Assembly: GCF_003236295.1 (NCBI RefSeq)
Contig: NZ_POTW01000058.1
Span: forward strand, 1 to 41,916
DNA length: 41,916 bases
Direction of reading: 5' to 3'
Source of the DNA: Jiangella anatolica
GTDB lineage: Bacteria; Actinomycetota; Actinomycetes; Jiangellales; Jiangellaceae
In this document: one piece after another, positions 5,161 to 30,635 of the stretch
How positions within the stretch are numbered: the stretch's first letter is position 1
How the letters are laid out: every line of letters begins with the position of its first letter
Program-made: the position numbers and the translations under genes
Notes under the pieces: model-generated
The model's database searches: none
What the model was told of the DNA's origin: nothing
The model's input: only the letters and a program-made list of their open reading frames with translations

Positions 5161-6357
5161 ATGGCCCGCTACCGCCGGTTCGCCGTCGCCACCAGCCTGA
5201 GCACCGCCGGCGACGGCGTGTTCGCGGCGGCCGTCCCGCTGCTCGCCGCGACGCTGACCCGGGACCCGCGGCTGGTCTCGGCCGTCGCGGCGGCCGCGTA
5301 CGTGCCGTGGCTGCTGTTCTCGCTGCCGGCCGGCGCGCTGGTGGACCGGCACGACCGGGCCGCGATGATGTGGCGCGGCGTCGCCGTCCAGGCCGTCCTC
5401 GCCGCGGTCGTGGCCGTGCTGGCCGCGACGGACCGCCTGAGCGTCGCCGGGTTGACGGCGCTGGCGTTCGGCCTCGGCGCCGGGCAGGTGCTGACGGGGA
5501 CCGCGGCGCAGGCGCTGCTGCCGTCGCTGGTCGCGCCGGACCGACTCCCGTCGGCCAACGGCTACCAGCAGACCATCGCCGTCGTCGGGCAGCAGTTCCT
5601 CGGCCCGCCGCTGGGCAGCCTGCTGTTCGCCGTCGCCGCCGGGCTGCCGTTCGGCGTCGACGCGGTCGTGCTGACGGTGGCGGCCGCGCTGCTGGCGACC
5701 CTGCGCGCGGACCGCGGACGCCCTGCCCGGGTGACGTCGTCGCTGCGGACGGAGATCGCCGCCGGGCTGCGGTGGCTGGCCGCGCACCGGCTGCTGCGGA
5801 CGCTGACTCTGCTGGCCGCCGTCAACACGTTCTGCTTCCAGCTCGGCAACGCGACGCTGGTGCTGCTCGCGACGTCGGAGCTGGGTGTGACGGCGCGCGG
5901 GTTCGGCCTGCTGCTGGCGACGGCGGCGGTCGGCAGCCTCGCCGGCGGCGTGGCCGGGCCCTGGCTGCTACGCCGCTGCGGTGACCGTGCCGTCCTGCTC
6001 GCGGCGCTGACGGTGAACGCGGCGGCCGCGCTGGCGATCGGCCTCGCCGGCTCCGCCGTCGCGCTGGGCGCGCTGCTCGCCGTCATCGGGCTGGGGGTCA
6101 CGTTGTGGAACCTGGTCAGCATCGGGCTGCGGCAGCGGCTGGTCCCGGCCGAGCTGCTGGGCCGGGCGATGAGCGTGCACCGGCTGGTCGGCTGGGGGCT
6201 GATCCCCGCCGGCGCCCTGCTCAGCGGCGTCGTGGCGCACGAGTTCGGCCTGCGCGCGCCGTATCCCCTGGCCGGTGGGATCCGGCTGGCCGCCCTGCTG
6301 GTCGCCCTGCCCATGATCATCAACCTTTCGGGCTGGCATGACGACCCGGAAGGTTGA
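5161..6357 (+). CDS. MFS transporter (MFS_3/EntS-like exporter)
   Basis: This 398-residue integral membrane protein has about 12 hydrophobic segments. The N-terminus reads MARYRRFAVATSLSTAGDGV, and the segment-2/3 loop holds LPAGALVDRHDRAAMMW, the MFS G-x3-D-R motif. The half-molecule QTIAVVGQQFLGPPLGSLLF is typical of MFS_3 exporters related to EntS and macrolide exporters. The expected function is proton-driven export of a small molecule; the substrate is unknown. It is divergent from a DUF5937/ArsR regulator that probably controls it. An oddity is that the last codons and the TGA stop (6355-6357) lie inside a long palindrome, so the C-terminal tail (about MIINLSGWHDDPEG) appears to come from a repeat insertion. 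Confidence 0.9.
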   Translation: MARYRRFAVATSLSTAGDGVFAAAVPLLAATLTRDPRLVSAVAAAAYVPWLLFSLPAGALVDRHDRAAMMWRGVAVQAVLAAVVAVLAATDRLSVAGLTALAFGLGAGQVLTGTAAQALLPSLVAPDRLPSANGYQQTIAVVGQQFLGPPLGSLLFAVAAGLPFGVDAVVLTVAAALLATLRADRGRPARVTSSLRTEIAAGLRWLAAHRLLRTLTLLAAVNTFCFQLGNATLVLLATSELGVTARGFGLLLATAAVGSLAGGVAGPWLLRRCGDRAVLLAALTVNAAAALAIGLAGSAVALGALLAVIGLGVTLWNLVSIGLRQRLVPAELLGRAMSVHRLVGWGLIPAGALLSGVVAHEFGLRAPYPLAGGIRLAALLVALPMIINLSGWHDDPEG

Positions 6358-6366
6358 TGATCATGG
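6311..6366 (+). repeat. Long palindrome across the MFS stop codon
   Basis: The left arm CCATGATCATCAACCTT (6311-6327) and right arm AAGGTTGATGATCATGG (6350-6366) are perfectly complementary over 17 bp. As plus-strand RNA the stem extends to 21 pairs (6311-6331 with 6346-6366), using one G-U wobble and a 14-base loop. There is no T-run, so it is not a textbook terminator. Fourteen bases (CATGATCATCAACC) recur at 29843-29856. Confidence 0.85.
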
Positions 6367-28395: not shown

Positions 28396-29300
28396 CGCTC
28401 TGCTCGGACGTCGGCCGCGAGCTGGCCGAGCCGCTGGCCGGCACGGCGCCCGTCGCCGCGTGGTGGCTGGTGGTCGAGCAGCCCGGACCGTGGGGCGCGA
28501 AGGCGCTGACGCAGTCGCACCTGGACCCGTCGCTCGGGCGTGACCTCGACGCGGCCGCAGCCGAGTACGGCGGACGGGTCGCGCTGGTGCGGCGGCCGCG
28601 GCGGCATCCCGACACGCACTATCCGGCGGCGCGCCGGGTCTGGCTGGCCGGCACGACGCCGGGCGCGACGTTCCTGCTCGGCGGCTGGCTGCCGTCGCCT
28701 GAGGTGCTGCGCTCGCTCGACTTCGCCGCGCTGGCGTCCGGTTCGCCGTCCAGCCTGCCCGAGCTTCAGCCGGAGACCGAGCCGCTGCTGCTGGTCTGCA
28801 CGAACGGCCGCCGCGACCTGTGCTGCGCGGTGAAGGGGCGCGACCTGGTCGCCGGGTTGCGCGACGACGTGCTCGGCCGGGTCTGGGAGACCACGCACCT
28901 GGGCGGGCACCGGTTCGCGCCGACGGCGGTGCTGCTGCCGCACGGCGTCGTGTACGGGCGGCTGGACGACAAGCAGGCGCTGCTGCTGGTCGAGTCCGCC
29001 CGCGACGGTGGCTTCCTCGGCGACGGATACCGCGGCCGCAGCACGTTCTCCCGGCCCGGCCAGGCCGCCGAGGCCGCGGTCCGGCAGCGGCTCGGCGACT
29101 CCGGGCTGGACGACCTGACCGTCGCGTCCGCCGACCCGGACGGCGACGGCGCCTGGTCCGCCGTCGTCGCGCACCGTGACGGGCGGAGCTGGACGGTCGC
29201 CGTCCGCTCACAGGAGCAGCACCCGCCCCGGCCCGAGTCGTGCGGCAAGCCGCCGGCCACCCCGATCGCATACGTTGCCGATGTCCCCGTCCCGAGGTGA
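28392..29300 (+). CDS. Sucrase/ferredoxin-like protein (Suc_Fer-like family)
   Basis: This 302-residue protein is of the Suc_Fer-like thioredoxin-fold family. The family signature LLVCTNGRRDLCCAVKGRDL (about 136-155) and WETTHLGGHRFAPTAVLLPH, including H-x3-H, are clear, as is GVVYGRL. Relatives are proposed [2Fe-2S] or redox proteins; no enzymatic activity is established. The GTG at 28392 overlaps the MFS stop (GTGA), so it is the third gene of the lprG operon. Possible roles in redox protection are inferred. Confidence 0.9.
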   Translation: MTLCSDVGRELAEPLAGTAPVAAWWLVVEQPGPWGAKALTQSHLDPSLGRDLDAAAAEYGGRVALVRRPRRHPDTHYPAARRVWLAGTTPGATFLLGGWLPSPEVLRSLDFAALASGSPSSLPELQPETEPLLLVCTNGRRDLCCAVKGRDLVAGLRDDVLGRVWETTHLGGHRFAPTAVLLPHGVVYGRLDDKQALLLVESARDGGFLGDGYRGRSTFSRPGQAAEAAVRQRLGDSGLDDLTVASADPDGDGAWSAVVAHRDGRSWTVAVRSQEQHPPRPESCGKPPATPIAYVADVPVPR

Positions 29301-29310
29301 GAGGAACCCG

Positions 29311-29811
29311 ATGCAGTCCGACGAGTTCGCCGACGTCCTGGTCGCCAACGACGACTACGCCGAGCGGTTCGCCCTGGCCGGCCTGGAGCCGGTCGCCGCG
29401 CGCGGGCTGGCCGTCGTCACCTGCATGGACTCGCGCATCGAGCCGCTGGACATGCTCGGCCTGAAGCCCGGCGACGCGAAGATCATGCGCAACGCCGGCG
29501 CCCGCGTCACAGCCGACGTGCTGCGCACGCTGGCGCTGGCGACACACCTGCTCGGCGTCACCCGGATCATGGTGGTGGCGCACACGAAGTGCAAGATGGC
29601 CAGCGCAACGTCGGAGGAGGTCGTCGCCGCGATCGAGCAGTCCACCGGCATCGACGTGCGCAGCCTCGACTTCCAGCTGATCGCCGACCAGCCGGCCACC
29701 CTCCGCGACGACGTGCAGAAGGTCCGCTCCTGGCCCTTCCTGCCCCCGGCCGTCCCCGTCGGCGGCTTCCTCTACGACGTCGACACCGGCCGGCTCACCC
29801 AGCTCGCCTGA
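29311..29811 (+). CDS. Beta-class carbonic anhydrase
   Basis: This 166-residue enzyme interconverts CO2 and bicarbonate. Zinc ligands C38 (VTCMDSRIEP), H91 and C94 (VAHTKCKM) and the D40-R42 dyad are visible. The HTKCKM motif replaces the more usual HTDCGM; the zinc pair is kept. The ATG at 29311 follows GAGAGGA. It lies 10 bases after the ferredoxin-like gene and may be co-transcribed. A 480-bp gap with structured repeats follows. Confidence 0.93.
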   Translation: MQSDEFADVLVANDDYAERFALAGLEPVAARGLAVVTCMDSRIEPLDMLGLKPGDAKIMRNAGARVTADVLRTLALATHLLGVTRIMVVAHTKCKMASATSEEVVAAIEQSTGIDVRSLDFQLIADQPATLRDDVQKVRSWPFLPPAVPVGGFLYDVDTGRLTQLA

Positions 29812-29842: not shown

Positions 29843-29931
29843 CATGATCATCAACCATCCGGTACCTCGCTAGGCGTTCTCCCGCTCTACCACCCATGCA
29901 TGCCCGGTAGAGCGGGAGAACGCCTGGTGGG
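29843..29931 (+). repeat. Perfect 20-bp inverted repeat hairpin with TGATCAT core
   Basis: AGGCGTTCTCCCGCTCTACC (29872-29891) pairs perfectly with 29906-29925 around a 14-base loop. In plus-strand RNA, three G-U pairs extend it to 26 pairs (29866-29891 with 29906-29931); the wobble pairs are not possible on the other strand. Just before it, CATGATCATCAACC (29843-29856) repeats the arm of the palindrome at 6312. Confidence 0.85.
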
Positions 29932-30012
29932 CCGCCCGGACCCGAGCCACAGACCACGCCGAAGTCCCCAACGGGGGTCGCCGTGCCCCGACGGGCCGTC
30001 GCCACACTCCCC

Positions 30013-30157
30013 CCGTCCCCCTGATAGCTGCCCGTTCTTGGCCGGGACGACTCGGGTCAAGTACGGCGGCCCCCACCACAACACAACAGAAACCAGCAAG
30101 AGCCGCCGGACTTGAGGCGCGCCGACCCGGCTAAGAAAATGGGCACCAGGGGGACGG
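30013..30157 (+). repeat. 145-bp imperfect inverted-repeat element (possible structured RNA or MITE)
   Basis: Four nested stems fold the segment into one long hairpin: 30013-30023 with 30147-30157 (11 bp), 30030-30033 with 30141-30144, 30035-30046 with 30126-30137 (12 pairs with one G-U), and 30057-30070 with 30102-30115 (14 pairs, one mismatch). The loop 30071-30101 is A/C-rich. No open frame in it looks coding. It could be a mobile element or a noncoding RNA. Confidence 0.7.
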
Positions 30158-30259
30158 CCAACGGTCGCAACCCCTCAATGCCGACGTCGCAGCCATCAAG
30201 CCAACGGCAGCAAGACCACCAACCTCCCCCGCCGGGTACAACGCGTCCTCCCCACGCCC

Positions 30260-30287
30260 TTGACGCATGCCGATATAGGCATACGAT
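30260..30287 (+). promoter_or_regulatory. Leaderless promoter and operator of arsR-type gene
   Basis: TTGACG (30260-30265), 16-bp spacer, TACGAT (30282-30287) lies 6 bases before the ATG at 30294, and no Shine-Dalgarno is present, so the mRNA is probably leaderless. An imperfect palindrome CGCATGCC-N6-GGCATACG (30264-30285, one mismatch) fills the spacer and may be the ArsR operator. Confidence 0.68.
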
Positions 30288-30293
30288 GGCGTT

Positions 30294-30635
30294 ATGGCAC
30301 GAGCAGCGACGACGTCGGACGTGTTCAACGCGATCGCCGAGCCGCAGCGCCGGGACATCCTGATGCTGCTGCGGGCCGGCGAGTGGCCGGTCACCGACCT
30401 GGCCCGGGAGCTCGGGATGACGCAGCCCGGCGCGTCCAAGCACCTGCGGGTGCTCCGCGAGGTCGGGCTGGTGCGCGACCGCAAGGCGGGCAAGCAGCGC
30501 CTGTACGGCCTCGACGCCCGCGGGCTGCGGCCGGTGCACGAGTGGACCGGCGGGTTCGAGCGGTACTGGAACGAGAGCTTCGACCGGCTGGACAGCTACG
30601 TCCAGCAGTTGAAGCAGGCCGGGCGGGAGGAGTAG
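30294..30635 (+). CDS. ArsR-family winged-helix repressor
   Basis: This 113-residue repressor has the layout DVFNAIAEPQRRDILMLLRA, then VTDLARELGMTQPGASKHLR and EVGLVRDRKAGKQRLYGLD. There is no metal-binding cysteine pair, so a metal is not the signal. It starts at ATG 30294 with a promoter immediately upstream and probably represses itself and the following AHSA1 and RibD-like genes. ArsR-AHSA1 pairs of this sort are common in actinobacteria. Confidence 0.92.
   Translation: MARAATTSDVFNAIAEPQRRDILMLLRAGEWPVTDLARELGMTQPGASKHLRVLREVGLVRDRKAGKQRLYGLDARGLRPVHEWTGGFERYWNESFDRLDSYVQQLKQAGREE

Follow-up and report, generated by a model that had tools for sequence, protein, structure and literature searches.

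A hairpin located between a carbonic anhydrase gene and an arsR-type gene of Jiangella anatolica is, with high probability, one arm (the beta arm) of an incomplete copy of a non-autonomous element interspersed in Jiangella genomes, which resembles a giant REPIN or BIME and spreads to new sites. It was found in a stretch of 41,916 nucleotides, referred to below as the window. The arm is repeated, its structure is conserved between copies, the unit to which it belongs is polar, the copies share a preferred location with respect to genes, relatives carry loci free of the element, and the element is restricted to the genus as sampled.

The sequences CCGTCCCC at position 30013 and GGGGACGG at position 30157 form the exact ends of a 145-nt imperfect palindrome (Table 1). 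An earlier note, made from the letters alone, had described an imperfect hairpin between carbonic anhydrase and arsR, and both its coordinates and its neighbours proved correct, the latter being assigned by Pfam to the carbonic anhydrase (PF00484) and ArsR regulator (PF01022) families. The A/C-rich loop of 31 bases was recovered when the palindrome was folded as DNA (z -7.39, with 0 of 200 shuffles as good), and the consensus structure derived from 51 copies has 40 pairs. Folding of positions 30000-30170 as RNA gave z of -4.80 for the + strand and -6.18 for the - strand. What the note had missed is a second palindrome of the same composite, B. In its 3' arm the window copy carries CACC in place of the consensus CAGC. 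Several mechanically defined open reading frames run across the hairpin, and none of them was retained by our gene calls, which were home-made and based on GC at codon positions. The comparison with Rfam, proposed in the note, gave no match in the window for any of 4227 families at the gathering threshold; at E up to 5, seven matches of microRNA-type or other families were obtained in the segment 29800-30260, all of them far below gathering, and these are weak, chance-like matches with nothing credible among them.

Table 1. Features of the element and of its surroundings in the window
Feature	Coordinates	Strand	Details
Carbonic anhydrase gene (Pro_CA), start approximate	29176..29811	+	ORF, Pfam
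Half-site CATGATCATCAAC bordering B, common to a separate small palindrome family	29843..29855	+	
Palindrome B	29844..29939	+	Perfect 20-bp arms 29872-29891 and 29906-29925
Beta-type head flank GTCGCCACACTCCCC	29998..30012	+	GTCRCC head typical of beta arms
Hairpin core A, beta-type arm, 145-nt imperfect palindrome	30013..30157	+	Own-genome matches, covariation, DNA fold
Hairpin 5' arm, conserved start CCGTCCCCCTG-ATAG-CTGCCCGTTCTT	30013..30070	+	51-copy alignment, fold
ATAG, 4 nt, conserved, 5' side only, makes the hairpin asymmetric	30024..30027	+	Alignment, consensus structure
Middle stem, co-varying, 5' side; partner 30120-30128	30044..30052	+	Alignment columns 35-44 with 113-121
Variable A/C-rich loop, 31 nt	30071..30101	+	DNA fold; alignment columns poorly conserved
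Hairpin 3' arm, consensus end GGCTAAGAnAATGGGCAGCAGGGGGACGG	30102..30157	+	51-copy alignment
Outer-side tail of the element, CCAACGGTCGCA...CCAACGGCAGCAAG, end approximate	30158..30214	+	Tail conservation, 32 own-genome copies
Promoter-like hexamers ahead of arsR	30260..30287	+	103 nt past hairpin
arsR-type regulator gene	30294..30635	+	ORF, Pfam

A search of the organism's own genome (G000; 7.0 Mb in 256 contigs), which had also been suggested in the note, revealed at least 47 matches to positions 30000-30170, at least 32 of them near-complete, with 40 of the 63 candidates scored. Exact matches to the core numbered 183, 57, 57, 55, 50, 40, 31, 16, 10, 5, 0 and 0 in 12 Jiangella genomes, and the 10 members of the family sampled outside the genus had none. 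Among 40 genomes of relatives, matches were present in 11 of the 12 representing Jiangella, weakly in G005 (best E 2.4e-5); G003 had no match to 30000-30170, and a single weak match was noted in 1 of the 28 genomes of other genera. In a sample of 148 genomes of the class, searched with the opposite arm, 7 of the 8 Jiangella genomes had 13-227 matches, and 20 of the 140 genomes outside the genus had 1-2, where a reversed control gave 1-4 matches in 11 of those 140. Matches outside Jiangella are rare and near the reversed-control level, and the element is confined to one genus as sampled. A minority variant of the core, with one or two extra bases, was represented by four stretches in Jiangella endophytica and J. 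rhizosphaerae. The viral contigs searched had no exact match to the 23-nt core, and the plasmid collection gave no match. Palindrome B occurs apart from A in G003 and G005, both devoid of the A core (loci L126, L129, L145 and L095), and three of these four loci lie just past a gene end. Our literature search, which covered titles and the beginnings of abstracts and reached subscription journals thinly, returned no description of such an element for Jiangella.

Conservation of the hairpin was assessed in an alignment of 51 copies from 9 genomes. BLAST matches covering fewer than about 120 bases were removed beforehand, and of 56 copies aligned, 5 were set aside (L015:1667, L017:2268, L023:95, L026:1650 and L049, the sole copy from G004). 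In the consensus structure 97.4% of cells were paired, against a mean of 91.3% in shuffled alignments; 11 pairs showed double changes versus 6.9, double-change cells numbered 119 versus a mean of 33, none of 500 shuffles matched the real alignment on any of five measures, and 38-49% of cells paired when the partners were slid, neither of these controls amounting to a probability, since related copies push the counts up relative to shuffles, and a structure that comes from the consensus has an advantage against slid ones. Even with these limits the number of double changes is large: compensatory changes maintain the pairing of the hairpin, far beyond chance. The check for covariation proposed in the note thus came out in favour of a preserved structure, and the contrary case, in which no homologues would have kept the pairing, did not occur. 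Most of the double changes fall in the middle stem. Variation is concentrated there and in the loop, and the feet of the hairpin, including the one-sided ATAG, are nearly invariant; in the numbering of the first sequence, positions 12, 13 and 15 of this motif are invariant and position 14 nearly so, and the motif is unpaired in the consensus structure. On the + strand G-T cells outnumber A-C cells by 82 to 18, or by 31 to 15 when two columns beside internal loops are left aside. Such an imbalance suggests a lean toward the + strand acting as RNA, which would be antisense to the gene preceding most arms; it is not decisive, since the cells are not independent events.

The arms are organized into larger units. 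Matches shorter than about 100 nt were excluded from the counts of orientations, gene ends and direct repeats, and the loci from G001, G002 and G008 were the best BLAST matches, which introduces a bias toward intact copies. All 39 of 39 pairs of A arms separated by at most 700 nt were inverted (-+ orientation), and palindrome B sits between the arms in most composites read. When arms from three genomes were classified by the orientation of B, a GTG-type head flank was found in 38 of 38 alpha arms and a GTCRCC head in 44 of 47 beta arms, the remaining 3 being undecided. Many alpha arms of G001 and G002 are shorter, with a different tail. In G000 the two outer tails, compared in inverted position, show partial similarity; in G001 and G002 they differ from each other. 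The outer length of composites was 677-792 bp in G000 (9 composites), 510-624 bp in G002 (15), 454-702 bp in G001 (12) and 546-656 bp in G008 (3). The full unit is therefore a polar alpha-B-beta structure of about 450-800 bp, and the window copy is incomplete, consisting of B and the beta arm without the alpha arm.

Another palindrome, of 54 bp (CATGATCATCAACC...GGTTGATGATCATG, window positions 6312-6365), represents a second repeat family, with 82 half-sites in the own genome, 26 pairs of which are 41 bp apart. It is present on the inner side of three single arms, and a half of it borders B; A, B and the 54-bp palindrome were found in several combinations. At L194, L168 and L155, partial arms or tandem fragments lie next to complete arms, which suggests nested or repeated insertion.

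Positions of the arms relative to genes are far from uniform. By the home-made gene calls, there was a stop codon within 120 nt of the outer side for 64 arms (at 7-119 nt) and a start codon for 8. When distance is disregarded, 80 of 101 arms face a stop, and 5 further arms had no gene call. The window arm, which faces arsR, is one of the 21 exceptions, and 32 nt separate the stop codon of the carbonic anhydrase gene from B. Such a location between the two genes, together with the strong fold, could point to a regulatory leader of one of these genes, be it an attenuator, a riboswitch or a target of ArsR, and an attenuator had indeed been considered in the note. However, the same arm stands beside many unrelated genes, the orthologous arsR loci of seven relatives had no match to the arm in the regions read, the promoter-like site of arsR lies downstream of the hairpin, and Rfam gave no credible match; the first two of these observations in particular speak against an attenuator specific to arsR or carbonic anhydrase, and we consider a local leader of any kind extremely improbable. 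The element as an arsR leader was rejected also because the orthologues share sequence only from about position 30256. The beta tail of the window copy ends upstream of the promoter-like site, and most likely the element does nothing specific for arsR.

Sixteen loci of the own genome were queried with pieces from both flanks. At L027 and L017, convergent genes with touching or overlapping stop codons and no element between them are present in G008 and G010, and the same holds for the convergent genes of L014 in G008; at these three loci G000 contains about 0.45-0.85 kb of extra DNA, arms included. Other loci are shared between species, among them L019, where arms occur in G008 too, and the vicinity of rho described below, and this counts against the mobile reading. 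The element-free sites may be deletions in the relatives, and movement of a copy was never observed directly. At L027 the insert is bordered on both sides by a perfect 13-nt direct repeat, which is single in G010, with its first bases different.

The repeat at L027, the inverted arrangement of the arms and the partial likeness of the inverted outer tails in G000 could all be accounted for by a MITE derived from a DDE insertion sequence, with the arms serving as terminal inverted repeats and the parental insertion sequence lost or unsampled. A MITE was among the guesses of the earlier note, and the part of it that implies a mobile repeat stood, given the many dispersed copies, the inverted pairs and the element-free sites. 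A general target-site duplication, on the other hand, did not emerge: the 38 composites, compared exactly and with tolerance of mismatches, showed no excess of direct repeats over mismatched pairs, the 13-nt case being a solitary one. This means that duplications either decayed or never existed. Moreover, the tails of the two arms differ in G001 and G002, the transposase genes encountered in composites have inserted into arms or between them, and the loci read showed no transposase bounded by arm-like ends. Origin from a DDE element is thus improbable in our assessment.

The insertions just mentioned deserve a comment of their own. In G008, at L195, L196 and L197, the hairpin is interrupted at nearly identical points (profile positions 21-37, around CTAAG) by transposase genes (PF13701; PF13340 with PF01609; PF13613). 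All three insertions are of DDE type, and by Pfam name one is probably IS1380-type and one IS4/5-type. Since the hairpins are split at nearly one place, the hairpin is a landing site for insertion sequences. In two further composites of G008, L191 and L192, one and the same rve-type (IS3-like) transposase gene occupies the space between the arms. We considered larger units carrying their own genes between the arms, and rejected them, as the genes read were transposases of other insertion sequences. Landing of insertion sequences in REPs is described in the material cited from an earlier report (PMC1525189). At L013 and L015 of G000 the flanks are swapped relative to G008, G010, G004 and G007, which suggests that two composites have recombined or that an inversion took place between repeats, unless the assembly is at fault.

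A different explanation would be that the arms are retained because they act at gene ends as barriers, in RNA or DNA form (terminators working in both directions, Rho-assisted stops or stabilisers of 3' ends between convergent genes), and that their spread is secondary. We regard it as a real possibility, though on the unlikely side; a role as a transcription barrier is a serious rival of the mobile-repeat reading or an addition to it. The + strand, carried by a transcript coming from the opposite side, has a C/A-rich unpaired loop, such as would be expected of a Rho site. Location past stop codons, with the outer side facing the stop in the 80 arms counted above, and preservation of pairing in the 51 aligned copies would both be accounted for. 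Single arms also stay intact: in three genomes single and paired arms did not differ significantly in intactness (p 0.08, 0.14 and 0.73, after removal of 7 singles close to contig ends, in a sample biased to good matches). Against a barrier function, a scan for terminators yielded a single weak match with a U-tract, located within the hairpin, versus 0.4 in shuffles, 2 of the 12 Jiangella genomes have no core match, and the convergent genes of L027, L017 and L014 do without the element in relatives. The excess of G-T cells, not decisive as it is, leans toward RNA antisense to the gene preceding most arms.

The vicinity of rho (identified by Pfam, with release factor 1) is instructive in this respect. 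Of seven genomes, three have an arm near rho, one has a remnant and three have none. By eye, in all three arm-bearing genomes a short inverted repeat belonging to the gene itself lies between the stop codon and the arm; this repeat is common to five of the seven genomes, two of them having at most a remnant of the arm, and the other two genomes have a different one. Because the gene's own repeat stands between the rho stop codon and the arm, the latter is not simply the rho terminator. Use of the rho arms as orthologues for measuring selection in place was tried and rejected: arms near rho differ in type between genomes, which makes their orthology unsure.

How, then, does the mobile element compare with systems already described? 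According to PMC3116915, REPINs of Pseudomonas and other bacteria are inverted doublets of REP sequences, proposed to be moved by RAYT, with conserved inverted ends and a variable hairpin spacer undergoing compensatory changes, and REP singlets decay. As far as that description goes, the Jiangella arms likewise form conserved inverted ends with a variable spacer, belong to a compensatory hairpin, and are extragenic, dispersed and non-autonomous; unlike REPINs, the A arm is about 145 nt long, has bulged stems and is further paired into a polar alpha-B-beta unit, and its singles look undecayed. Single arms as intact as paired ones, seen in a sample biased to good matches, would not fit the REPIN pattern, and an arm on its own may therefore have a function. 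The REP literature cited here links REP-type repeats to RAYT transposases, or, in the case of CGTC repeats, to no known enzyme. A Y1/RAYT transposase (Y1_Tnp, PF01797) was detected in none of the 12 Jiangella genomes, while the control was positive in E. coli and in 4 of 13 other control genomes. There is also no GTAG tag in the Jiangella element, and the terminal CCGTC is paired. With no Y1 transposase, no GTAG tag and a size several times larger, the element stands outside the REP/RAYT family as defined.

REPs tagged with GTAG or CGTC are characterized in PMC3733652 as 20-40 bp sequences located near the 3' ends of convergent and unidirectional ORFs and forming inverted dimers; the main text of that article never mentions actinobacteria, Frankia, Mycobacterium or Streptomyces. 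On this description, the Jiangella arms share the location near ORF 3' ends and the inverted pairing, and differ in the size of the unit, 145 nt versus 20-40. BIMEs appear in PMC2817692 as mosaics of REPs in alternating orientation. By comparison with that account, the Jiangella element is also a mosaic of palindromes in opposite orientations at gene ends, but its modules are much larger, its sequence is different and its host is an actinobacterium. BIMEs bind gyrase, IHF or Pol I. The small mobile repeats RU-1 and RU-2 of enterobacteria measure 127 and 168 bp (PMC2759123). Compared by that description only, they resemble the Jiangella arm in size, intergenic position and MITE-like character. 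RU-1 is ERIC, and neither repeat is known to be arranged as alpha-B-beta. The attC sites of integrons are long bulged hairpins with a variable end, placed in the same orientation beside gene cassettes. The Jiangella arm is a long bulged hairpin with a variable end as well; unlike attC sites, the arms form inverted pairs around a mostly non-coding interior, and no GTTRRRY-type core was recognized by eye.

Under the favoured reading, that of a spreading interspersed element, the polar unit consists of an alpha hairpin, B and a beta hairpin. Each hairpin measures roughly 145 nt, their outer tails point in opposite directions, and the unit spreads mainly to sites shortly past the stop codons of genes in convergent or tandem arrangement. 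An enzyme acting in trans might recognize the folded, single-stranded hairpin by its foot, the ATAG bulge and the internal loops, and move the element; we infer the mobilising enzyme, as well as any role of the RNA, such as the undescribed structured RNA suggested in the note. Sites past stop codons may be either those at which the element inserts or those at which it is tolerated. A more specific proposal, which we regard as rather doubtful, would combine all these features: a polar fold-back alpha-B-beta element, moved by a non-Y1 enzyme reading the 145-nt bulged single-stranded hairpin and targeting junctions of convergent genes, where it would also act as a two-way barrier to transcription.

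The effect of insertion at touching stop codons on convergent transcription is directly testable. As a high-copy actinobacterial relative of REPs in genomes with no detected Y1 transposase, the element constitutes a clean system for finding the missing enzyme, and the contrast between the ten Jiangella genomes in which the core occurs 5 to 183 times and the two that lack it may serve as the basis of such a search.
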